This document shows, one piece after another, positions 13,660 through 29,583 of a DNA stretch of 64,000 nt (position 1 is its first letter; each line of letters starts with the position of its first letter). Below the pieces are notes generated by a model. It did no database searches. It was not told the DNA's origin and was given only the letters and a program-made list of their open reading frames with translations. The position numbers were made by a program, and so were the translations under genes. Source of the stretch: Polaribacter sp. SA4-10 (lineage in GTDB: Bacteria > Bacteroidota > Bacteroidia > Flavobacteriales > Flavobacteriaceae); contig CATIQU010000035.1 of assembly GCA_949519155.1 (NCBI GenBank), forward strand, positions 248,001 to 312,000, given 5' to 3'.

Positions 13660-14922
13660 TTACACTAAAAATTGAAACAAATCGGGTTTGTCATTTAAAT
13701 AATCTCCGAAAAAATTCTTTTCTTTCATTTTTGCAACCAACGGCGCTAAGTCCTTTGAAGATTTTAATTGCAGGCCAACGACAGCAGCACCATTTTCTCT
13801 ATTGGTTTTTTTTGTATATTCAAAATGAGTAATGTCATCATTTGGTCCTAAAATATCAACCAAAAATTCTTTTAAAGCTCCTGCTCTCTGTGGAAATTTA
13901 ATGATAAAGTAATGTTTTAAATTGGCAAACAATAAGGCTCTTTCTTTGATCTCTGCCGTTCGAGTAATATCATTATTACTTCCGCTCACAATACAAACAA
14001 CGTTTTTACCACGAATTTCTTTAGCATAGCTATCTAATGCAGCAATGCTTAAAGCTCCTGCTGGTTCTACAACAATAGCATCTTTATTGTACAAGTCTAA
14101 GATAGTCTGACATACTTTTCCTTCCGGAATTGTAATCATATCCGATAAGTTTTGCAAACAGATATCGAAATTTAAATCACCAACTCTTTTTACAGCAGCA
14201 CCATCTACAAAAGCATCAATTGTATCTAAAGCAATTACTTTTTTATGAGCGATAGAAGTCTTCATTGAAGGAGCTCCTTCTGGCTCTATACCAATTATTT
14301 TTGTTTCTGGTGACAGGTTTTTGAAAACAGACGACAATCCAGAAGACAAACCTCCACCTCCTACTGCCACGAAAACGTAGTCAATTTTTTCTGAAGTTTG
14401 ATTCAAAATTTCTAACCCAACGGTAGCTTGACCTTCAATCACTTTTTTGTCATTAAAAGGATGAATGAATGTTTTATCTTCCGATTCACAAGCAACTATA
14501 GCCGCATGATAGGCATCATCAAAAGTATCCCCTTCAATCACAACCTCAATAAAATCTTCTCCGAACATTTTTACCTGCTCAATCTTCTGATTTGGGGTTG
14601 GTGAAGGCATGTAAATAGTACCTTTTATCTGCAATAACTTACAGGATAATGCAACACCTTGTGCATGATTTCCTGCACTGGCACAAACAATTCCTTTTTC
14701 TCTTTGCACTGTTGACAAAGAAGACATTTTATTATAAGCACCTCTTATTTTATAAGATCGGACGACTTGTAAGTCTTCTCTTTTAAATAGTATGTTAGCT
14801 CCAAATTTCTTTGAATTTTGAACATTTTGGCTCAATGGCGTAATAGAAGCCACTCCTTTTAGATTTGAAGCGGCTGCTTTTACGTTTTCTAAACTTGGAA
14901 AATAGGTGTTTTTTGATTGCAT
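13660..14922 (-). CDS. ilvA: threonine dehydratase (biosynthetic)
   Basis: FKREDLQVVRSYKIRGAYNKM, SAGNHAQGVALSC, GGGGLSSGL, C-terminal regulatory domain; in ilv operon. Confidence 0.93.
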   Translation of the reverse strand: MQSKNTYFPSLENVKAAASNLKGVASITPLSQNVQNSKKFGANILFKREDLQVVRSYKIRGAYNKMSSLSTVQREKGIVCASAGNHAQGVALSCKLLQIKGTIYMPSPTPNQKIEQVKMFGEDFIEVVIEGDTFDDAYHAAIVACESEDKTFIHPFNDKKVIEGQATVGLEILNQTSEKIDYVFVAVGGGGLSSGLSSVFKNLSPETKIIGIEPEGAPSMKTSIAHKKVIALDTIDAFVDGAAVKRVGDLNFDICLQNLSDMITIPEGKVCQTILDLYNKDAIVVEPAGALSIAALDSYAKEIRGKNVVCIVSGSNNDITRTAEIKERALLFANLKHYFIIKFPQRAGALKEFLVDILGPNDDITHFEYTKKTNRENGAAVVGLQLKSSKDLAPLVAKMKEKNFFGDYLNDKPDLFQFLV

Positions 14923-14925
14923 TAA

Positions 14926-16404
14926 TTATGCTTCTGATGTAATTACTTTCATTGCGGTCATTGAAGCTCGTAGTTGTGCACCAATGATTTCAACTGGATG
15001 ATTTCTGATTGCACTATTCACAGCAATTAAATCTTGGTTGTCTACACCGTTTTCATTTGTAAAGGATTTCCCAATAATATTTGTTTTTACTGTTTTCATA
15101 AAATCTGTCAACAACGGCTTACAGGCATGATCAAATAAATAACAACCATATTCTGCAGTATCAGAAATCACACGATTCATTTCAAATAATTTTTTACGGG
15201 CAATAGTGTTTGCAATTAAAGGTGTTTCATGTAAAGATTCATAGTAAGCAGATTCCTCAATAATTCCCGCAGCGGTCATTGACTCAAAAGCCAACTCCAC
15301 GCCTGCTCTTACAAAAGCAACTAATAAAGTGCCATGATCAAAATATTCTTGTTCAGAAATTTCTTGATCTGTAAGTACTTGTTTTTCAAAAGCAGTTTCT
15401 CCAGTAGCAGCTCTCCAAGACAATAAATTTTTGTCATTGTTAGCCCAATCTTCCATCATCGTTTTTGAAAAATGTCCTGAAATAATATCGTCCATATGCT
15501 TATTGAATAATGGACGCATAATGTCTTTTAGTTCTTCTGAAATTCGAAATGCTTCAATCTTAGCTGGGTTTGACAAACGGTCCATCATGTTGGTAATTCC
15601 ACCATGTTTTAATGCTTCCGTTGTGGTTTCCCAACCGTATTGAATGAGTTTAGCAGCATACCCTGGTTCAATTCCTTCAGCAACCATTTTATCGAAAGAT
15701 AAGATGGCGCCTGTTTGTAACAAACCACATAAAATGGTTTGTTCTCCCATTAAATCGGACTTTACTTCGGCTACGAAAGAGGATGCCAAAACACCTGCTC
15801 TGTCACCACCTGTTGCAACCGCATAGGCTTTCGCTTGTACCCAACCTTTATTTTCTGGATCATTTTCTGGATGTACTGCTATTAATGTAGGCACTCCAAA
15901 TCCACGTTTGTATTCTTCACGAACTTCACTACCAGGAGATTTTGGCGCAACCATAATTACGGTCAAATCTTTACGGACTTGCATTCCTTCTTCTACAATA
16001 TTAAAGCCATGAGAATAGCTTAATGTTGCATTTTTTTTCATCAAAGGCATGATGGTTTTCACCACATTTGTATGCTGCTTGTCCGGTGTTAAATTCAATA
16101 CTACATCTGCTGAAGGAATCAATTCTTCATAGGTACCTACTGTAAAACCGTTTGAAGTTGCATTGAGATAGGAATCTCGTTTTTGATCAATTGCTGCTTG
16201 ACGTAATGTATACAAAATATCCAAACCTGAATCTCTCATGTTGAGCCCTTGATTTAATCCTTGTGCACCGCAACCAACAATTACAATTTTCTTTCCTTTC
16301 AATGCTTGAACACCGTCTACAAATTCTGACGAATCCATAAATCTACATTTCCCTAATTGTTCTAATTGATTTCTTAATGATAATGTGTTAAAATAATTTG
16401 ACAT
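14926..16404 (-). CDS. ilvC: ketol-acid reductoisomerase (long/class II type)
   Basis: 492 aa, [27 protein letters not shown], duplicated C-terminal knotted domain. Confidence 0.95.
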
Positions 16405-16415
16405 GTTTACGTTTT

Positions 16416-16943
16416 TTAGTTGAATGCTGTCAGCATTTGTGAGATTTCCATGGGTTGTTTTGACACTGATACTCTTCCAGAACGCGTAAATTGCAAAATT
16501 CCAAAAGGCTTTAATTCTTTATAAATTAAATCGACTTCTTCTTTTCTTCCTGATTTTTCAATCACAAAAAAGGATTTATTTACGGTAACAATTCTTGCGT
16601 TGCTTTCTTTAATAATATTCTGAATCTGTCTTTCTTCAAAGAGCAAATCAGACTGCATTTTAAAAATACACGATTCTTGATAAATGGTGTCTTCGTCTTT
16701 GTGATAATAGGCCTTAATAACCTCCACTTGCTTTTCAATTTGACCAATTATTTTCTTGATATTTTCATCTGTCATATTGACAACAATGGTGAATTTAGAG
16801 ACCCCTTCTATTTCTGAAGGCGAGGTATTTAAGCTCTCTATATTGATATGTCTTCGCTGAAAAATTGCAGAGATTCGATTCAATAAACCAATATTGTTTT
16901 CAGTATAGACTGAAATGGTAAATAATTGTTTTTCTGTACTCAT
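16416..16943 (-). CDS. ilvN: acetolactate synthase small subunit
   Basis: ACT domain [36 protein letters not shown]. Confidence 0.93.
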
Positions 16944-17056: not shown

Positions 17057-18790
17057 CTAACACAGTCTTATATCTGAAACACTTGCTCCTGAAGGAACCA
17101 TTGGAAATACATTTCCTTCCTTTTCTACACAAACTTCTAAAAAATAGGCTTCTTTACTCTCCATCATTTCTTTTACTGCTGCAGCCAAATCTTCTCGTTT
17201 TGTTACTTTTCTTGCTTTTAAATAGTACCCTTCTGCAATGGCAACAAAATTAGGATTGGTCATTTCTGTGGAAGCATAGCGTTTATCAAAAAATAGCTGC
17301 TGCCATTGACGAACCATTCCTAGAAATTCGTTGTTTAAAACCACCATCTTCACCGCTGTTTTCTGCTGAAAAATAGTTCCTAATTCTTGAATTGTCATTT
17401 GATAACCACCATCTCCTGAAATAGAAACGACTTCTCTTTCTGGAGCAGCCATTTTAGCACCAATTGCAGCAGGTAATCCAAACCCCATAGTTCCTAAACC
17501 ACCCGAAGTAATATTACTTTTTGTTTTATTGAACTCGGCATATCGACAGGCAATCATTTGATGTTGTCCAACATCAGTAACAATCGCAGCATCTCCTTTA
17601 CTTTCAACATTAATCTGGTGAATCACTTCCCCCATTGTCAATCCTTCTTTGGTTGGATAGAGGTCCTCTTTTATGACTTTTTCATATTCAATGGCATATA
17701 AATCTTTAAATTCTTGATGCCAGTCTGTATGTGTACTCTCATTTATAAGTGGCAAAATTGCAGTCAAACTTGCTTTTGCATCCCCTAAAACTGCAACATC
17801 CGTTTTTACATTTTTATCAACTTCTGAAGGGTCAATTTCAAAATGAATCACTTTTGCTTGAGTTGCATATTTACTAAGGTCTCCAGTAACACGATCATCA
17901 AAACGCATTCCAATAGCAATCAACACATCACACTCATTGGTTAATTTATTAGGTGCATAATTACCATGCATACCCAACATACCAACATTTAAACGATGCG
18001 AAGTTGGCAATGCAGAAGCACCTAAGATGGTCCATGCTGCAGGAATCCCAGCTTTTTCTACAAAAGCTTTAAATGCCACTTCTGCTTCACTTAAAATAAT
18101 GCCTTGCCCCCAAACAATCATTGGTTTTTTAGCTTCATTGATCAGTTTTGCTGCCGCCTCTAGAGTTCCAGATATTGTTTTTGGAATCGGCACATAGCTT
18201 CTTACTTTGGTACATTTTTCGTAAGCAAAATCAAACTCTTCAAATTGTGCATCCTTGGTAATGTCTACTAAAACAGGACCCGGTCTTCCACTTTTTGCAA
18301 TGTAAAATGCTTTTGCAATGGCTTCTGGAATTTGAGACGCTTTAGTTACTTGACAATTCCATTTTGTTACTGGCGTTGAGATACCTACAATGTCGGTTTC
18401 TTGAAAAGCATCACTTCCTAATAAATGGGAAGGTACTTGCCCAGTAATACAAACCATGGGTGTAGAATCTATCTGTGCATCTGCAATTCCAGTAATTAAA
18501 TTGGTAGCACCCGGACCAGAGGTTGCAATGGCAACTCCTACCTGTCCAGAAATTCTTGCAAAACCTTGTGCTGAATGTGTAGCACCTTGTTCATGACGTG
18601 TTAACACGTGATGAATTTTGTCTTGGTATTTATACAACTCATCATAAACGGGCATAATTGCACCACCAGGATATCCATATAAAACCTTTACTCCTTCTGC
18701 TATTAAACAGCGAACAATAGCTTCACTACCTGAGATTTTTTCGGTAACTTTTGTTACTGTATCTTTATTTTTGATGGTTTGAGTTTCCAT
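17057..18790 (-). CDS. ilvB: acetolactate synthase large subunit
   Basis: ThDP enzyme; VLYGYPGGAIMPVYDELY, GPGATNLITGIADAQIDSTPMVCITGQV, GDGGYQMTIQELGT. Confidence 0.95.
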   Translation of the reverse strand: METQTIKNKDTVTKVTEKISGSEAIVRCLIAEGVKVLYGYPGGAIMPVYDELYKYQDKIHHVLTRHEQGATHSAQGFARISGQVGVAIATSGPGATNLITGIADAQIDSTPMVCITGQVPSHLLGSDAFQETDIVGISTPVTKWNCQVTKASQIPEAIAKAFYIAKSGRPGPVLVDITKDAQFEEFDFAYEKCTKVRSYVPIPKTISGTLEAAAKLINEAKKPMIVWGQGIILSEAEVAFKAFVEKAGIPAAWTILGASALPTSHRLNVGMLGMHGNYAPNKLTNECDVLIAIGMRFDDRVTGDLSKYATQAKVIHFEIDPSEVDKNVKTDVAVLGDAKASLTAILPLINESTHTDWHQEFKDLYAIEYEKVIKEDLYPTKEGLTMGEVIHQINVESKGDAAIVTDVGQHQMIACRYAEFNKTKSNITSGGLGTMGFGLPAAIGAKMAAPEREVVSISGDGGYQMTIQELGTIFQQKTAVKMVVLNNEFLGMVRQWQQLFFDKRYASTEMTNPNFVAIAEGYYLKARKVTKREDLAAAVKEMMESKEAYFLEVCVEKEGNVFPMVPSGASVSDIRLC

Positions 18791-18838: not shown

Positions 18839-20521
18839 TTAAGCATCTGTAATACATCCTTTTGAAGCGGACGCAACTACTTTCGCATATTTATATAAGA
18901 TTCCTTTTTTATGTTTTAATGCGGGTGCAGTCCATTTTGCTTTTCTTGTTGCTAATTCTTCTGCGGAAAGCATTACATTAATGGTATTGTCTTCGGCACT
19001 GATTCTAATGGTATCTCCTGTTTCTAAAAGTGCAATGATTCCTCCAGATTGTGCTTCTGGTGTAATGTGTCCTACAACAAAACCATGAGTACCTCCAGAA
19101 AAACGACCATCGGTAATTAATGCAACCGATTTTCCTAAACCAGCCCCCATAATTAATGAGGTAGGTTTCAACATTTCTGGCATCCCTGGCCCTCCTTTAG
19201 GGCCTACATAGCGAATGACAACCACATCACCTCTTTCAACATCACCGTTTGAAATTCCTGTATTGGCAGCTTGTTCGCCGTCATATACAACCGCTTTTCC
19301 TTCAAAAAGCAATCCTTCATTTCCAGAAATTTTTGCGACAGCACCTTCTTCTGCAAGATTTCCATATAAAATTTGAATATTTCCTGAGGATTTAAGCGCT
19401 TTGTCCTTTGGATAAATGACATCTTGAGAATCTTTATCAAAGGTCAATGCTTCCACATGTGCTAGGTTCTCTGCCAATGTTTTTCCGGTAACGGTTAAAC
19501 ATTCACCATGCAAATAGCCGTTGTCTAACAAATACTTCATGACAGCTGGCGTTCCACCTACCCCATGAACATCTTCCATCAAATATTTTCCCGATGGTTT
19601 TAAATCAGCAATTAATGGCGTTCTATCACTTACTTTTTGAAAATCTGCTAAGGTAAAATCGATATCTGCTGCATGCGCAATTGCTAAAAAGTGCAACACC
19701 GCGTTTGTAGACCCTCCCAATGCATTTACAATTGCAATGGCATTTTCGATGGATTTTTTAGAAATAATATCCAACGGTTTTAAATCCAATTCTAATAAAT
19801 TCTTAATCGCCAATGCAGTTCTTTCTGCTTCCGATAATTTATTTGGATTTTCCGCAGGTATTGATGAGTTGTAAGGCAATGAAAACCCCATACACTCGAT
19901 GGCAGAAGCCATGGTGTTTGCTGTATACATTCCACCACAAGCTCCTGCTCCTGGAATGGCTCGTTTTATAATTTCTCGGTATTCTTCTTCTTCTATTTCT
20001 CCTGCTACTTTTTGACCTAAAGCTTCAAAAGCAGAGACAATATTTAATTTTTTTCCTTTATAATTTCCAGAAGCAATGGTGCCTCCATACATCATAATGG
20101 AGGGTCTGTTTAAACGCAACAACGCAATTACAGCACCTGGCATGTTTTTATCACAACCAACCACAGAAATTAATCCATCATAACTTTGTGCATTCATCAC
20201 GGTCTCAATAGAATCTGCAATTATATCTCTGGACGCCAGCGAATAATTCATTCCCGATGTTCCCATCGAAATACCATCTGAAACCCCAATCGTATTAAAA
20301 CCTAAACCGACTAAACCAGCAATTTTAGTTTCGACTTTTACTTCTGCTGCCAAATTGTTTAAGTGCATGTTACATGGATTTCCATCATAACCTGTACTTG
20401 CAATACCAACTTGCGCTTTGTTCATGTCTTCATCAGTCAAACCTACGGCATACAACATGGCTTGTGATGCGGGCTGAGATTCATCTTGTGTTAATCTTTT
20501 GCTATGTTTATTCAATTCCAT
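18839..20521 (-). CDS. ilvD: dihydroxy-acid dehydratase
   Basis: [39 protein letters not shown] motifs. Confidence 0.95.
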
Positions 20522-20690
20522 TTATTAAATGCTTCAATTTGTTGACTAAATTACTATGTTTCTGAGTTTTTGTTGAATATTCCACAATTATAAAAGCTAA
20601 ATTCATGCCCCCTGAAAGGGATGTAAAATACTTACATACAGATACTTAAATACTTTTTTATATGACATCCAACTTTTGAATTATTTTCAC

Positions 20691-20724
20691 AAAAAAACCT
20701 TCCGAATAATTGGAAGGTTTTTTT
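20691..20724 (-). terminator. attenuator-type terminator in leuB-ilvD spacer
   Basis: Minus strand AAAAAAACCTTCC-AATTATTC-GGAAGGTTTTTTT: 13-bp perfect stem ending in a T7 tract, inside an operon spacer. Confidence 0.85.
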
Positions 20725-20751
20725 ATAAAAATTATAAATAGCACCTCCGTA

Positions 20752-20814
20752 TCATGTCGTAATAACTACGTTGACAATAAGAATAGAAATAATATTTATG
20801 AATTGTATATACAT
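20752..20814 (-). CDS. ilv leader peptide MYIQFINIISILIVNVVITT
   Basis: ATG...TGA 20-aa ORF with 7 Ile, 3 Val, 1 Leu, 2 Thr; stop codon followed at once by GGAGG that can pair with CTTCC of the terminator stem; sits between leuB and ilvD. Confidence 0.75.
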   Translation of the reverse strand: MYIQFINIISILIVNVVITT

Positions 20815-20865
20815 TTTTCAAATATTTGTAATTTTTTGTTAAATATCTAAATTTATTTTACTTTT

Positions 20866-21981
20866 TTAAATAATGGTACTTTTTCCCATGTGAATGTTCT
20901 GAAAATTATGATTACTATCATCGTGATTTTCAATATAATCTGCAATAAAATCACCTACCTCTGAAGTTGTAAACGATTTCTCAGAATTCAAATCTTCAGT
21001 AACTATTGATAATTCTAACGATTTTTCAACAGCATTTTCTATCGCTTCTGCTTCATCATGTAAACCTAAGTGCTCCAGTAACATTGCTGCTGATAGGATA
21101 GAAGCTAAAGGATTGGCAATATCTTTACCTGTTGCTTGCGGAAATGATCCATGTATAGGTTCAAAAAGTGCATTCTCGTTTCCAATAGATGAGGAGGCTA
21201 ATAAACCTATAGAACCACCTATAACACTGGCTTCATCAGAAATAATATCTCCAAAAAGGTTTTCTGTAAGAATGACATCAAATTGTTTTGGATTTAAAAT
21301 CATTTGCATGGCAGCATTGTCTACAAAAAGGAATTCAAGGGTAACATCTTTATATTCTTTGGCTATTTCTGTAACCGTTTTTCTCCACAAACGAGACGTT
21401 TCTAAAACATTCGCTTTGTCAACTAAGGTTACTTTTTTTCTTCTATTTTGTGCCGCTTTAAATGCGAAATGTGTAATTCTTGAAATTTCATTAACAGAAT
21501 AAGAACATCCATCAAAAGCAACGGTACCGTCTTCACTTAATTCCTTTACTCCAAAATAAATACCTCCTGTTAGTTCTCTAAAAATAGAAATATCAGTACC
21601 TGAAATAATTTCTCTTTTTAAGGGAGAATTATCAATGAGTTGTTCGTAGGCTTTTACAGGTCTTATGTTGCAAAACAATCCCAATTCTTTACGTAACCTT
21701 AACAAACCTTGCTCTGGTCTTACTTTTGCTGTGGGATCGTTGTCGTACTTTGGGTCTCCAATAGCTCCGAATAAAATAGCATCCGATTTTTTACAAATCT
21801 TTAACGTTTTTTCTGGTAAAGGATTTCCTGTTGCATCAATTGCACAAGCCCCCATCTGCGCTTCTTTGTAAATAAACACATGATTGTAGGTATTTGCAAC
21901 CGCGTTGAGTGCTTTTTTTGCTTGATTGATTACTTCTGGACCAATTCCGTCTCCAGGAATTACTGCAATATTAAATTTCAT
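20866..21981 (-). CDS. leuB: 3-isopropylmalate dehydrogenase
   Basis: IAVIPGDGIGPEVINQAKK, TENLFGDIISDEASVIGGSIGLLASSSIG. Confidence 0.95.
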   Translation of the reverse strand: MKFNIAVIPGDGIGPEVINQAKKALNAVANTYNHVFIYKEAQMGACAIDATGNPLPEKTLKICKKSDAILFGAIGDPKYDNDPTAKVRPEQGLLRLRKELGLFCNIRPVKAYEQLIDNSPLKREIISGTDISIFRELTGGIYFGVKELSEDGTVAFDGCSYSVNEISRITHFAFKAAQNRRKKVTLVDKANVLETSRLWRKTVTEIAKEYKDVTLEFLFVDNAAMQMILNPKQFDVILTENLFGDIISDEASVIGGSIGLLASSSIGNENALFEPIHGSFPQATGKDIANPLASILSAAMLLEHLGLHDEAEAIENAVEKSLELSIVTEDLNSEKSFTTSEVGDFIADYIENHDDSNHNFQNIHMGKSTII

Positions 21982-22565: not shown

Positions 22566-23947
22566 TAATTTAAGTGTTTTGTAATATCTACAATTCTTCC
22601 TACTATTGCTGTTGCTGCTGCTACCAATGGGCTTGCCAAAATAGTTCTGGCTCCCTGCCCTTGTCTCCCTTCAAAATTTCTGTTTGAAGTAGATACACAA
22701 TATTCTCCTTCTGGAATTTTGTCATCATTCATCGCCAAACAAGCAGAACATCCTGGTTGTCTTAATGTAAAACCAGCGGTTTCAAAAATGGTTTTTAATC
22801 CTTCCGCTTCAATTTGCTTTGCCACCTTCTGTGAACCTGGAACCAACCAAGCGTTTACATTATTGGCTTTCTTTTTTCCTTCTACAAATGCTGCTGCAAT
22901 TCTAAAATCTTCGATTCTAGAGTTGGTACAACTTCCAATAAAGACATAATTAATCTTTTTATCAATAAGCGATTCTCCTTTTTTGAAATTCATATACGCC
23001 AATGATTTCTCAAATGAGGCATCTTTTAATTCTGGTATATTTTCCGTAATCTTAATTCCCATTCCTGGATTGGTTCCATAGGTAATCATGGGACCAATGT
23101 CTTCGGCATTTATTGAATATTCTTGATCGAAAACGGCATCGTCATCAGTAGGAAGTGTTTTCCACTCGGCAACTTTTCGATCAAAATCAGCTCCTTTTGG
23201 CGCAAATTCTCTTCCTTTTACATATTCAAAAGTCGTTTCGTCTGGAGCAATCATGCCTCCACGAGCGCCCATTTCGATACTCATATTACAAATAGTCATT
23301 CTGCCTTCCATAGACATTTCTTCAAAAACATTTCCTGCGTATTCACAAAAATATCCGGTACCAGAATTGGTTCCTAATTTAGAAATAATATAAAGAATAA
23401 CATCCTTTGGCAGCACTCCTTTTGCTAATTTTCCGTTTACATTTACACGCAAACTTTTTGGTTTTTCTAACAATAAGCACTGACTTGCAAATACTTGTGC
23501 AACTTGACTTGTACCGATTCCGAAAGCAATGGTTCCAAAAGCGCCATGTGTAGACGTATGAGAATCTCCACAAACCATGGTCATTCCGGGTTGTGTAAAC
23601 CCTAATTCTGGTGCAATAACGTGAACAATTCCGTTATTCTCATGCCCTAAACCATATAAGGTAATCTTGTTTTTGGCACAATTCTTTGTGAGTTGTTCTA
23701 ATTGATTTCGAGACAACACATCTTTTACTGGCAAATGCTGATTTAATGTTGGGGTATTGTGGTCTGCTGTAGCTACTATTTTGTCGGGTCTAGCTATAGA
23801 AATTCCACGACTTTCTAATTCATTAAAAGCCTGAGGACTTGTTACTTCATGAATTAAATGTTTGTCGATATACAGTACCTGTGGTCCGTTTTCAATAACA
23901 TCTACTACATGTGCATCCCAAACTTTATCAAATAATGTTTTTCCCAT
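22565..23947 (-). CDS. leuC: 3-isopropylmalate dehydratase large subunit
   Basis: [38 protein letters not shown]. Confidence 0.95.
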
Positions 23948-25122
23948 TATGCCATTGTTATTTTAGAAATTTTATTTACTTTTTTTAGAATCAAATGAAG
24001 ATCGTCATTCATTACTTCTTTCTGTTTATCTGCATATTCAAGAAATGCATCATAGGCGAAATCCAATTGCACCTTTGTCAATTCGTATCCAATCTTTTTT
24101 GCTCTGTAGGCTAATGCGGCCCTACCACTTCTTGCAGTTAAAATAATGGCACTTTCTGTAACACCAACATCTTCTGGATTCATTATTTCGTAGGTTTCTC
24201 TGTTTTTAATAACACCGTCTTGGTGAATTCCAGAACTGTGTGCAAAGGCATTAGCACCCACAATTGCTTTGTTTGGTTGTACCGGCATCCCCATACTTTC
24301 ACGAACTAATAAACTGGTGTCGTATAATAATTTTGTATTGATATCGGTTACCAAATTTAAATACGGATGTTGTTTTAATACCATCACGACTTCTTCTAAA
24401 GCAGTATTTCCTGCACGTTCACCAATTCCGTTAATCGTACATTCTATTTGACGTGCGCCACTCATAACCCCCGCAATGGAATTGGCGGTTGCCATTCCTA
24501 AATCATTATGACAATGACAGGAAAGTATTACATTTTCTATTCCTTTAACATTTTCTCTTAGGTATTTGATTTTTGCGCCATATTCTTCAGGTAGGCAATA
24601 TCCAGTTGTGTCAGGAATGTTTAATACAGTAGCACCTGCTTTAATGACTGCTTCGCATACTCTTGCTAAATATTCATTCTCAGTTCTACCAGCATCTTCA
24701 GCATAAAACTCCACATCCTCTACAAAAGATTTTGAGTAAGAAACAGCTTTTATAGCACGTTCTATTACTTTTTCTCTGGTTGAATTGAATTTAAATTTTA
24801 TATGTGAATCACTCGTACCAATTCCCGTATGAATTCTTGGCAATTTAGCGTATTTTAAAGCTTCTGCTGCGACTTTAATATCATTTTCTACAGCTCTAGT
24901 CAAACCACAAACAGTTGCGTTTTTTACTATTTTTGAAATCTCTGAAACGGAATTAAAATCACCAGGACTGGAAACAGGAAATCCAGCTTCGATGACGTTG
25001 ACGCCTAGCAAATCTAAACGTTCTGCAATTACCAATTTTTGTTGAGTATCCAGTTTACATCCTGGTACTTGCTCCCCGTCTCTTAATGTAGTATCAAAAA
25101 TTTGAACTTTATTATCCTGCAT
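23947..25122 (-). CDS. leuA: 2-isopropylmalate synthase
   Basis: [42 protein letters not shown]. Confidence 0.94.
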
Positions 25123-25254: not shown

Positions 25255-26820
25255 ATGAGCAAAAGCATTACATCACTCAACCAACAAAAGGATTCCTCGT
25301 TTATTTTGGTAAAATCGTTATCAAAATCAGAAAAGAGGCAATTCAACCTTTATGTGAGTAGATTAGGTGGAAATGTAGACGCAAAATTCTTTTCCTTGTT
25401 TAAGTTTTTAGACAAAATGAAGGCTTATAATGAAAAGGAAATCATTAAAAGTAACATTGTCACCAAACAACAATTATCAAACTTAAAAGCGCACTTATAC
25501 AAGCAAATTTTAATAAGTTTACGACTCAATCCTTCGCATCAAAATATTCGTTTACAAATTAGAGAACAGCTAGATTTTGCGACCATTCTGTATCAAAAAG
25601 GGCTGTACAAGCAAAGTTTAAAATTACTAGAAAAAGCAAAGGGATTAGCGATTGACAATGAAGAAAAAAATGTCGCTTATGAAATCGTAGAGTTAGAAAA
25701 AATAATTGAAACACAATATATTACTCGTAGTATCAGTTCAAGAGCAAATTTCCTTTCTGTACAGGCAAAAAATTTAAGTCAGTTAAATGTAACAACAAGC
25801 AAACTTTCCAATTTATCTTTACAATTATATAGTCATTTACTGCAAAATGGATATGTGAAAAACAATGAAGAATTGCTTTTTATAACGACTTATTTTAATG
25901 AAAAATTACCAAAATATGATTTTTCAGACTTTGGTTTTCGAGAAAAATTGTGGCTCTACAAATCGCATTTATGGTTTAGTTTGTTAACACAAAATTTCCT
26001 GCAAAGCTATAAGTACGCAAGTAAATGGGTCGACTTGTTTAAGAGTCATAAAGAGCTCATTTCTTTGCACCCTGTCTTTTATTTAAAGGGTAAAAACTAT
26101 TTTTTAGAAGCTTCTTTTCTGGTAAAAAATAACCAGAAATTCAAGGAAGAACTAGCTTATTTTGAAAAGGAAATTGAAGACAATAGCATTCCTTTCAATA
26201 GCAATACAGAAATTTTAATATTTCTATATTATTACACCAATAAATTGCACTTACACTTTTTAGAAGCAACGTTTAGCGAGGGTGAATATTTAGTAGAAAT
26301 TATCAATACGAAAATAGAAACCTATAGAAGCAAGATAGACAACCATCATATTGTCACCTTGTATTATAAAATTGCATGTTTGTATTTTGGAATGAATAAA
26401 AACAAAGAATGTATCACTTATTTAAGTAAAATCATTAATACAAAAGATTTAAAAGTTGCAGAGGATCTTCAATGTTTTGCAAGGGTCTTAAATTTAATAG
26501 CACACTATGAATGTGGTCTGGACTATGATCTGGAAAGGCAATTTGTAGACACGTATAAGTTTTTATTAAAAATGGAAAACTTACAAGAGGTACAAAAGGA
26601 ATTTATCACCTCTATACGAGATTTAAGTGATGTATATCCGCATGAAATAAAAAACGAATTTCAAAAAATACATGCAAGATTAAGTAAATATGAAAATCAT
26701 CAATATGAAAAAAGGGCATTTTTATATTTAGATATTTTATCTTGGTTGGAAAGTAAAATTAAAAACAAACCCATTGCGGTTATCATTAAAGAAAAAGCAA
26801 ATAAATCCTCTAAAAGATAA
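25255..26820 (+). CDS. hypothetical protein, probable TPR-like helical repeat
   Basis: 521-aa intact ORF; alpha-helical, Lys/Leu-rich; no specific motif recognised. Confidence 0.7.
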   Translation: MSKSITSLNQQKDSSFILVKSLSKSEKRQFNLYVSRLGGNVDAKFFSLFKFLDKMKAYNEKEIIKSNIVTKQQLSNLKAHLYKQILISLRLNPSHQNIRLQIREQLDFATILYQKGLYKQSLKLLEKAKGLAIDNEEKNVAYEIVELEKIIETQYITRSISSRANFLSVQAKNLSQLNVTTSKLSNLSLQLYSHLLQNGYVKNNEELLFITTYFNEKLPKYDFSDFGFREKLWLYKSHLWFSLLTQNFLQSYKYASKWVDLFKSHKELISLHPVFYLKGKNYFLEASFLVKNNQKFKEELAYFEKEIEDNSIPFNSNTEILIFLYYYTNKLHLHFLEATFSEGEYLVEIINTKIETYRSKIDNHHIVTLYYKIACLYFGMNKNKECITYLSKIINTKDLKVAEDLQCFARVLNLIAHYECGLDYDLERQFVDTYKFLLKMENLQEVQKEFITSIRDLSDVYPHEIKNEFQKIHARLSKYENHQYEKRAFLYLDILSWLESKIKNKPIAVIIKEKANKSSKR

Positions 26821-26921
26821 TAATTTACTATTTTTTAGTAGCTATTTTTATTCATTTGACATTAATCAAATATAAAAACAAAATAGTCTTTAATAAAAGT
26901 GCCTCTATTAACTAATAACAA

Positions 26922-26929
26922 TATTTTTG
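26922..26929 (+). promoter_or_regulatory. Bacteroidetes-type -7 box upstream of thr leader region
   Basis: TATTTTTG matches TAnnTTTG; no convincing -33 TTTG seen at the usual spacing. Confidence 0.4.
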
Positions 26930-26933
26930 CCTT

Positions 26934-27038
26934 GTGAATAACATAAGTCTACATATAATTTTATCTACCAATTCAGCAATTTCTTTTGAGATGACTTCTA
27001 TTGGTACGTTTCGCATTCCTTCGATTATTACCCTTTAG
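26934..27038 (+). CDS. candidate Thr/Ile-containing leader peptide upstream of thrA
   Basis: GTG-start ORF MNNISLHIILSTNSAISFEMTSIGTFRIPSIITL* (internal ATG at 26991); 8 Ile and 4 Thr of 34; no strong terminator seen downstream. Confidence 0.35.
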   Translation: MNNISLHIILSTNSAISFEMTSIGTFRIPSIITL

Positions 27039-27138
27039 GGGTTCTTATTTTTCATATCAAATTAGGTCATCATATTTTTCGATAAAAATTCGAAAACAAA
27101 TTCATAAAAATTATTTATCAACTATTTTATTATCAAAA

Positions 27139-29583
27139 ATGAAAGTCTTAAAATTTGGAGGTTCCTCTGTAGCTAGTTCAGAGAACATAAAAAAAGTAAT
27201 AAAAATTGTAGTTGATGCGGCTAAAAAACACAAAGTGTTAGTCATCGTTTCTGCGTTTGGTAAAACAACAAATGCATTAATTGAGGGGGCGCACTTCGCA
27301 CAAAATAAAAATGAAGAATATAAAAATGTCATTCAGCAACTAGAAAAACATCATTTTAATGTCATTCAAGAATTAATTCCGCCACAGAAACAACCTACTA
27401 TTGTTGCTCATGTCAAAGAGTTATTTAATCAATTAGAAACAATTTATAAAGGGTGTTATTTATTGGAAGAATTAAGCCCAAAGACACTGGCTACAATTTC
27501 AAGTTTTGGAGAATTATTATCATCTTCTATTATCGCAGAAATTTCTAATTTAGAACTCGACACCAACTACAAAGATAGCAGAGATTTAATTATTGCCTCT
27601 GATATGTATTTAGACGCTGTCGTAGATTTTTCAGCAACCAACAAAAAAATTACAGCTTACTTTAAGAATGATACCGCACAAGTTACTTTATTACCTGGTT
27701 TTGTTGCACTTACAAGCCAAGGACAAACAACAACATTGGGGCGTGGTGGTTCCGATTATTCGGCGGCGATCTATGCAGCAGCTTTAGATGCCGAAGAGTT
27801 ACAGATATGGACAGATGTTAGCGGAATGTTTACCTCCAATCCGAGTATCGTAAAGCAAGCATTTGCAATCCCCCATATTTCCTATCACGAAGCAATGGAA
27901 TTGTCACATTTTGGTGCAAAAGTAATTTACCCTCCGACAATTCAACCTGTTTTACAAAAAGAAATCCCGATTGTCATTAAAAACACTTTTCAACCCGAAG
28001 ATAAAGGGACGCGAATTACTAAAGACACACACACTAATAACCAACCTGTAAAAGGAATTAGTTATATAGAAAACATTACGCTAATTACTTTAGGGGGTAC
28101 TGGAATGGTTGGTATTCCTGGATTTTCAAAACGTTTATTCGAGGTTCTTTCTTTACATGAAATAAACATTACGTTAATTACACAAGCGTCTTCTGAATTG
28201 TCCATTTGTATTGGTGTTGAAAATAAAGATGCACATCGGGCACAAAAATTAATTGATACCATCTTTGAATATGAAATTCATCAACAAAAAGTAAGGCCTG
28301 TTATTTTAGAGCAAGATTTATGCATTATCGCTTTGGTTGGAGACAATATGAAAAATCACCAAGGTTTGAGTGGAAAAATGTTTAGCTCTTTAGGGAAAAA
28401 CAATGTCAATATTCGCGCAATAGCCCAAGGAGCGTCAGAAAAAAACATTTCGGCAGTCATCAATAAAAAGGATGCTAAAAAAGCACTGAACACTTTACAT
28501 GAGCAATTTTTTGAAGAAAAAACAAAACAGTTAAATTTATTTGTAACAGGAGTTGGAAATGTTGGAGAACGCTTTTTAGCACAAATTCATCAGCAAAAAG
28601 AATTCTTAAAAAAACATTTAAAATTAAGTATTAGAGTGGTGGCGATTTCTAACTCTCGAAAAATGTTTTTCGATGAAAATGGTATTAATTTGGAAAACTG
28701 GAAAGAACCACTAACCAACGGAACACCCACGAGTTTAACAGCCTTCTTTGAAAAAGTAAAAAACAGCAACTTAAGAAACAGTGTTTTTGTAGATAATACC
28801 GCAAATCAGCAAGTTTCAGAATTTTACAAAAACTACTTAAGTGAAAGTATTGGGGTGGTTACTTGTAATAAGATTGCCTGTGCCTCTTCTTTAGAAAATT
28901 ATAAAAAACTTAAAGAAACTTCAAGAAAATATAATGTACCCTTCTTATTTGAAACAAATGTTGGTGCTGGTTTACCCATAATTGACACCTTAAAAAACTT
29001 AGTTGCTTCAGGAGATCGAGTTCATAAAATTCAAGCTGTTTTGTCAGGAAGTTTGAATTATGTCTTCAACAATTTTGATGCTAAATCGACATTTCACGAT
29101 GTGGTTGCAGCAGCACAAAAAGAAGGGTATACAGAACCCGATCCAAAAATTGATTTAAGCGGTATAGATGTCGCACGAAAAATTCTAATTTTAGCCAGAG
29201 AAAGTGGCTACGATTTAGAGTTAGAAAATATAGAAAACAATTCTTTTTTACCTGAAAACAGCCTAGAAGCATCAAATAATGATGATTTTTATGAATCTTT
29301 AGCACAAAACGAAGCACATTTCCAAAACATTTTTAAGGAGGCGAATACTAAAAATTGCCGTTTAAAATATGTGGCAGCATTTGAAAACGGGAACGCAAAT
29401 GTTGGTTTGCAACAGATTGCTCCAGAACATCCTTTTTATAATTTAGAAGGAAGTGATAATATCGTGTTGTTTTTCACAGACAGATACCCAATAAACCCAC
29501 TTATAATAAAAGGAGCGGGCGCTGGTGCAGATGTAACAGCATCAGGTATTTTTGCAGATATTATAAGAATTGGAAATTTGTAA
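27139..29583 (+). CDS. thrA: bifunctional aspartate kinase / homoserine dehydrogenase I
   Basis: MKVLKFGGSSVASSENIKK start; TTLGRGGSDYSAA; LFVTGVGNVGERFL; GAGAGADVTASGIFADI. The ORF track start at 27001 (TTG) is probably over-extended by 46 codons. Confidence 0.95.
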   Translation: MKVLKFGGSSVASSENIKKVIKIVVDAAKKHKVLVIVSAFGKTTNALIEGAHFAQNKNEEYKNVIQQLEKHHFNVIQELIPPQKQPTIVAHVKELFNQLETIYKGCYLLEELSPKTLATISSFGELLSSSIIAEISNLELDTNYKDSRDLIIASDMYLDAVVDFSATNKKITAYFKNDTAQVTLLPGFVALTSQGQTTTLGRGGSDYSAAIYAAALDAEELQIWTDVSGMFTSNPSIVKQAFAIPHISYHEAMELSHFGAKVIYPPTIQPVLQKEIPIVIKNTFQPEDKGTRITKDTHTNNQPVKGISYIENITLITLGGTGMVGIPGFSKRLFEVLSLHEINITLITQASSELSICIGVENKDAHRAQKLIDTIFEYEIHQQKVRPVILEQDLCIIALVGDNMKNHQGLSGKMFSSLGKNNVNIRAIAQGASEKNISAVINKKDAKKALNTLHEQFFEEKTKQLNLFVTGVGNVGERFLAQIHQQKEFLKKHLKLSIRVVAISNSRKMFFDENGINLENWKEPLTNGTPTSLTAFFEKVKNSNLRNSVFVDNTANQQVSEFYKNYLSESIGVVTCNKIACASSLENYKKLKETSRKYNVPFLFETNVGAGLPIIDTLKNLVASGDRVHKIQAVLSGSLNYVFNNFDAKSTFHDVVAAAQKEGYTEPDPKIDLSGIDVARKILILARESGYDLELENIENNSFLPENSLEASNNDDFYESLAQNEAHFQNIFKEANTKNCRLKYVAAFENGNANVGLQQIAPEHPFYNLEGSDNIVLFFTDRYPINPLIIKGAGAGADVTASGIFADIIRIGNL

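Follow-up and report, generated by a model that had tools for sequence, protein, structure and literature searches.

A predicted isoleucine/valine leader-peptide attenuator upstream of ilvDBNCA in Polaribacter sp. SA4-10 and its counterparts in Bacteroidota

Results

Organization of the leuB-ilvD spacer

The window analyzed here, the whole 64,000-nt stretch of Polaribacter sp. SA4-10 DNA, carries on its minus strand the genes leuA-leuC-leuD-leuB, a 344-nt spacer, and ilvD-ilvB-ilvN-ilvC-ilvA. Within the spacer, a 51-nt gap is followed by a short leader ORF, a GGAGG motif, a hairpin, and about 170 nt leading up to ilvD. The features are as follows.

20866-21981, minus strand: leuB, the upstream flanking gene
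20819-20850, minus strand: promoter-like element, from conserved columns in 75 loci with [AT]TTG as the anchor and a listing of upstream sequences
20814-20752, minus strand: leader ORF encoding MYIQFINIISILIVNVVITT and a stop, with Ile/Val control codons and a composition kept in relatives
20750-20776, minus strand: 1:2-like hairpin over the last codons and stop, a pause or protector candidate, from folding
20743-20748, minus strand: putative antiterminator 5' strand GGAGGU, with ACCUUC in the 5' arm of the terminator as its partner
20722-20738, minus strand: inner antiterminator stem UUUAUAA:UUAUAAA, from folding
20724-20691, minus strand: intrinsic terminator hairpin with T7, matched by a conserved hairpin in relatives
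18839-20521, minus strand: ilvD (NF002068/TIGR00110), the first gene under the predicted control
17057-18790, minus strand: ilvB
16416-16943, minus strand: ilvN
14926-16404, minus strand: ilvC
13660-14922, minus strand: ilvA

The original prediction of an Ile/Val-rich 20-codon ORF and a 13-bp T7 hairpin between leuB and ilvD was confirmed in both coordinates and composition. The leader runs from an ATG at 20814-20812 to a TGA at 20754-20752 and contains 7 Ile, 3 Val, 1 Leu, and 2 Thr, with Ile and Val occupying 10 of its 20 codons. The terminator is built from A7 CCTTCC (20724-20712), the 8-nt loop AATTATTC (20711-20704), and GGAAGG T7 (20703-20691), giving 13 perfect pairs, 6 in the C/G-containing core and 7 A-U pairs with the T-tract itself. 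Among 5,000 dinucleotide shuffles of the spacer, a comparable Ile/Val ORF arose 13 times and a comparable hairpin never, nor did both occur together. A terminator-like scan of the window did not include the leader hairpin in its list.

At Rfam gathering scores, the only family in the whole window was the Flavo-1 RNA (RF01705; 2757-2825, minus strand, 50.9 bits), a described flavobacterial RNA motif of unknown function. Permissive-threshold Rfam matches to the leader element lay on the A/T-rich hairpin, far below the cut-offs, and were rejected. Two observations concern the flank beyond leuB. The LeuA homologue (23947-25122, minus strand; 391 aa) matches only about the first 384 of the 516 positions of the bacterial LeuA profile and thus lacks the C-terminal part. 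Divergent from leuA, a 521-aa ORF on the plus strand (25255-26820) has no Pfam match at E below 1e-10.

Conservation across Bacteroidota

Regions upstream of ilvD were gathered by a public-genome scan and from relatives at the genus, family, and phylum level, giving 237 non-redundant sequences. Scoring a module required two elements: an ORF of 10 to 45 codons in which a stretch of 12 residues holds 6 or more Ile/Val and, no more than 70 nt beyond it, a hairpin that has 3 or more G-C pairs and a T-tract. By this rule, 105 of the 237 regions carry a module, and neither their shuffled versions nor their reverse complements do (0/237 each), which rules out a chance ORF and hairpin. The pattern that would have spoken against the original prediction, relatives lacking both the ORF composition and the hairpin, was not borne out. 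Carriers include Flavobacterium, Lutibacter, Algibacter, Aquimarina, Winogradskyella, Elizabethkingia, Saprospiraceae, and Sediminibacterium, and the recurrence of the same arrangement in so many genera indicates that the control circuit is widespread in Bacteroidota.

Over 113 modules, the leader peptides consist of 31% Ile and 15% Val, and 111 begin with ATG. Peptides differ between groups (NIISIIVIVIISQG-like sequences, QISIIITSVVVVNV in Flavobacterium, LSTVISLVIIRVIG in another family), but Ile and Val stay the main residues. The remaining 132 regions showed no module recognizable by the rule, which may have missed some, and the 9 most divergent ilvD loci had none.

Individual relatives have lost the leader, the nearest one among them. 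In this relative (L002; ilvD 95% identical), the leader ATG and the TATTTG box upstream of it are gone and the terminator is intact, apparently the remains of a decaying attenuator. Three other loci (L008, L012, and L032) have no leader and carry a TAnnTTTG-like box just before ilvD.

The stretch between the terminator and ilvD in the window (20522-20690, minus strand) contains the conserved non-coding blocks TTGAATATCATAATAA, CCTGAATTTAAA, and TAATTTAGTCAACAAA, which are also kept in relatives without the leader. The last of these, TAATTTAGTCAACAAA, corresponds to the TAnnTTTG-like box in L008, L012, and L032. Possibly, these blocks form a second promoter or regulatory site.

Co-variation and folding of the antiterminator

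Directly 3' of the leader stop lies GGAGG (20748-20744, minus strand), which had been proposed to pair with the 5' arm of the terminator. This pairing held up, its best register being GGAGGU:ACCUUC with one G-U pair, and is prolonged by the inner UUUAUAA:UUAUAAA stem, which was absent from the original prediction. In nascent RNA, before the 3' arm is made, GGAGGU:ACCUUC plus the inner stem folds at -8.6 kcal/mol alone.

Co-variation was assessed by computing the duplex energy between each post-stop strand and its own terminator 5' arm and by permuting the partners among 33 non-redundant modules with clearly different arms. True pairs sum to -336.1 kcal/mol against a permuted mean of -230.8 (sd 13.1), a sum that none of 20,000 permutations attains. 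For a control strand taken from within the ORF the signal was absent: re-pairing did equally well or better in 3,447 of 5,000 cases. The first version of the test, with 16 modules and with L023 at -446, L051, and L068 left out as ORFs judged spurious by eye, gave the same answer. Variants that preserve the pairing include GGAAG/CTTCC, TTGATACAG/CTGTATCAA, GAATGG/CCATTC, and AAAGGGAT/ATCCCTTT. We regard this co-variation as the strongest single piece of evidence, because we see no process other than an alternative pairing with the terminator arm by which it would be maintained.

Folding of the window RNA depends on how the U-tract is treated. When the 3' arm is present and the U-tract is kept in the RNA-DNA hybrid, the antiterminator reaches 0.52-0.83 for first free bases 6-18 nt ahead of the stop, positions that by the estimated ribosome footprint correspond to a stall at about codons 11-16. 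With the ribosome on the stop codon, the terminator reaches 0.99-1.0. Once the full U-tract is free to pair, equilibrium folding of the window RNA always gives the terminator, and the switch must therefore be kinetic. Even with the U-tract excluded, only 44 of the 113 modules favor the antiterminator at their best stall position, so that equilibrium folding is only partly favorable to the switch and does not demonstrate it.

A 1:2-like hairpin over the last leader codons could act as a pause or protector in the folding model. It is more stable than 95% of synonymous-codon shuffles in 36 of the 113 modules, where about 6 would be expected; in the window alone the same test is not significant (0.36).

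A promoter-like element beside the leader start codon

Upstream of the leader ATGs, a conserved TTGG or TTAGG is followed after about 23 nt by TATTTG, which takes the form TACTTTTG in Flavobacterium. TATTTG mostly lies 8-10 nt from the leader ATG (about 19 nt in Flavobacterium). In the window, TTAG, a weak match to TTGG, precedes TATTTG (20824-20819), which ends 4 nt before the leader ATG and inside the 51-nt gap between leuB and the leader; the window's own -33 element is weak. The conserved box resembles the TAnnTTTG -7 box of Flavobacterium psychrophilum sigmaA, mapped at -12 to -5 (PMC9723704). A generic sigma-70 scan, which does not model flavobacterial promoters, found nothing above shuffles. 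If the element is used, transcription would start at the ATG or a few nucleotides from it.

The operon context of the attenuator can be read in two ways. The original prediction had placed it inside a single leu-ilv operon, where leuACDB-ilvDBNCA would form one transcript and the element would adjust ilv expression relative to leu. Consistent with such an arrangement, leuB precedes the leader by 51 nt in the same orientation, no terminator separates the two, and leuB is the upstream neighbor in 25 of the 105 leader-bearing loci. However, the other 80 have no leuB upstream, and the promoter-like element is conserved right beside the leader ATG. This part of the prediction is not supported by these features, and we consider an internal attenuator unlikely, if the best placed of the alternatives. 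Most likely, judging from these sequence features, the attenuator is the 5' element of an ilv operon with its own putative promoter and an almost leaderless leader ORF. Read-through from leuB into ilv is not needed for this arrangement but may occur, and it would also be attenuated.

Trp and His leaders elsewhere in the genome

Targeted looks were taken at trpE, hisG, and the aspartokinase genes of the same genome. Upstream of trpE (L245, G000:C33; trpE homologue at 26327-27652), a Trp leader, MKQQNIWWWSSLNQ with WWW followed by a stop, precedes a 12-bp terminator hairpin, AAAAGGCTTATC(TCAC)GATAAGCCTTTTTT. Here, TAAATTTG lies 7 nt before an in-frame ATG, and TTGG stands 27 nt before TTTG, the same spacing as in the ilv promoter-like element. 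Upstream of hisG (L248, G000:C35; hisG at 202137-202679), the His leader MYFIQNHHHHFQICNQAK with HHHH and a stop is followed by a terminator-like hairpin, ACCCGTTTGA...TCAAATGGGTTTTTTT. By sequence, leader-peptide attenuation thus appears to serve at least three pathways in Polaribacter sp. SA4-10, and the presence of Trp and His leaders makes the attenuator reading of the ilv leader much more likely.

Tandem modules

The window has a single module. Nine loci among the relatives (L010, L017, L038, L046, L058, L142, L157, L171, and L184) have two complete Ile/Val leader-terminator modules in series upstream of ilvD, and in seven of these a GGAAG type comes first and a GATACAG type second. The literature searched contained no previous description of leader-peptide attenuators arranged in series upstream of an amino-acid operon.

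Discussion

Proposed mechanism

The module in 105 of 237 regions, the co-varying antiterminator, and the Trp and His leaders together make classical ribosome-mediated (trp/ilv-type) transcription attenuation at the 5' end of the ilvDBNCA operon the best explanation, and one we hold with high confidence. An attenuator needs an ORF rich in the pathway's amino acids, here with half of its codons for Ile or Val, and a terminator between the leader and the first structural gene, which in the 105 loci lies within 70 nt of the leader stop. It further needs an antiterminator gated by the ribosome that excludes the terminator, and such a structure is found computationally, with only the 44 of 113 modules noted above being energetically favorable.

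RNA polymerase would start at the putative promoter immediately 5' of the leader ATG, leaving the leader mRNA with almost no 5' untranslated region, and a ribosome would translate the 20-codon Ile/Val-rich leader. With ample charged tRNA-Ile and tRNA-Val, the ribosome would reach the stop and cover GGAGG, CCUUCC would pair with GGAAGG, and transcription would end at the U-tract before ilvD. A ribosome stalled at the Ile/Val codons (about 11-17) would leave GGAGG free to form the antiterminator with the terminator 5' arm, presumably through kinetic trapping, and ilvDBNCA would be transcribed. The hairpin over the last codons would probably serve as a pause or protector. In outline, this is the switch originally predicted, with a ribosome at the stop hiding GGAGG, and the leader peptide, terminator, and GGAGG antiterminator are all strongly supported at the sequence level by the composition kept in 105 loci, the co-variation of the pairing, and the Trp and His leaders.

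Other readings of the ORF and hairpin fare worse. The hairpin, about 140 nt after leuB, might simply terminate the leu operon, with the ilvD promoter further downstream, as the TAnnTTTG-like boxes of the three leaderless relatives could suggest, and with the short ORF as an accident of AT-rich sequence. Both features together occurred in none of the 5,000 shuffles, however, and loci without leuB likewise show the ORF composition and the co-varying antiterminator, making this very improbable. Slightly less probable still is a functional small hydrophobic (membrane) protein with a terminator unrelated to its translation. The peptide is indeed hydrophobic and its NIISIIVIVII core recurs, but the sequence varies between families while the Ile/Val content stays, and neither the antiterminator co-variation, the synonymous constraint at the ORF end, nor the genome's own Trp and His counterparts fit a protein function. 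A riboswitch or T-box-like RNA that senses the amino acid or tRNA directly, to which position and terminator are common, is the least credible reading, as no Rfam family reaches its gathering score at the leader locus and the alignment of close relatives shows no conserved structure besides the terminator.

Comparison with known attenuators

Textbook cases of ilv operon attenuation by leader peptides come from enterobacteria, where ilvGMEDA and ilvBN (ilvL, ivbL), like trp, have an ORF of end-product codons, a 1:2 hairpin, a 2:3 antiterminator, and a 3:4 terminator. The attenuator in the window resembles these leaders in its ORF codons, antiterminator, terminator, candidate 1:2-like hairpin, and placement, although no sequence relation was found and the phylum is different. 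Unlike in the enterobacterial leaders, the leader ATG stands a few nucleotides after a promoter-like element, and ilvD is the first gene.

Published evidence also supports a leader attenuator of Corynebacterium ilvBNC (ilvB-II motif), whose leader is translated as leaderless mRNA or with no ribosome binding site (PMC10272879, PMC11857589). Like the ilv element in the window, it combines a uORF rich in branched-chain amino acids with terminator, antiterminator, and anti-antiterminator hairpins. It differs in preceding ilvB, in its uORF of 15-17 codons, in its sequence, and in belonging to Actinobacteria.

Bacteroidota did not figure among the groups for which a 2010 survey listed known leader peptides (PMC2965389), and leader-peptide attenuation in this phylum has so far been only hinted at (PMC9723704). 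The latter study, on F. psychrophilum, from the same family of bacteria as the window, speaks of "strong clues" that leader-peptide attenuation precedes amino-acid operons and, among structured 5' regions, names conserved elements for hisG and pheA; its main text contains no mention of ilv, no antiterminator evidence, and no phylum-wide survey. Its supplement may already list an ilv leader of Flavobacterium. Leader attenuation of ilv genes in Bacteroidota seems not to have been described earlier, and the near-leaderless layout and the tandem arrays may be the new parts. Salmonella mgtCBR likewise has two serial leader ORFs before one operon, as in the nine tandem ilv loci, but these control a Mg2+ transport/virulence operon and not amino-acid synthesis (PMC3641672).

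These findings make a strong, testable case that ribosome-mediated attenuation controls Ile/Val synthesis across much of Bacteroidota. More tentatively, and with the balance tipping slightly against it, Bacteroidota may own a widespread form of classical attenuation in which leader ORFs begin about 0-8 nt from the transcript 5' end (leaderless or nearly so, with no Shine-Dalgarno) and in which part of the phylum places two ilv attenuators whose terminator/antiterminator sequences are distinct, GGAAG type then GATACAG type, in series, widening the response range. The locus suggests a natural test of attenuator switches with near-leaderless mRNA, where translation does not rely on Shine-Dalgarno pairing, and the about 110 leader-peptide modules offer a resource with natural compensatory variants.

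A further, uncertain candidate is a Thr/Ile leader, MTSIGTFRIPSIITL followed by a stop, before an aspartokinase-homoserine dehydrogenase gene (26990-27140, plus strand). It overlaps ACCCTTTAGGGGT, after which comes T-rich sequence. The ATG of the gene (MKVLKFGGSS) lies at about 27139, and the TTG at 27001 that is listed as its start probably lies too far upstream.
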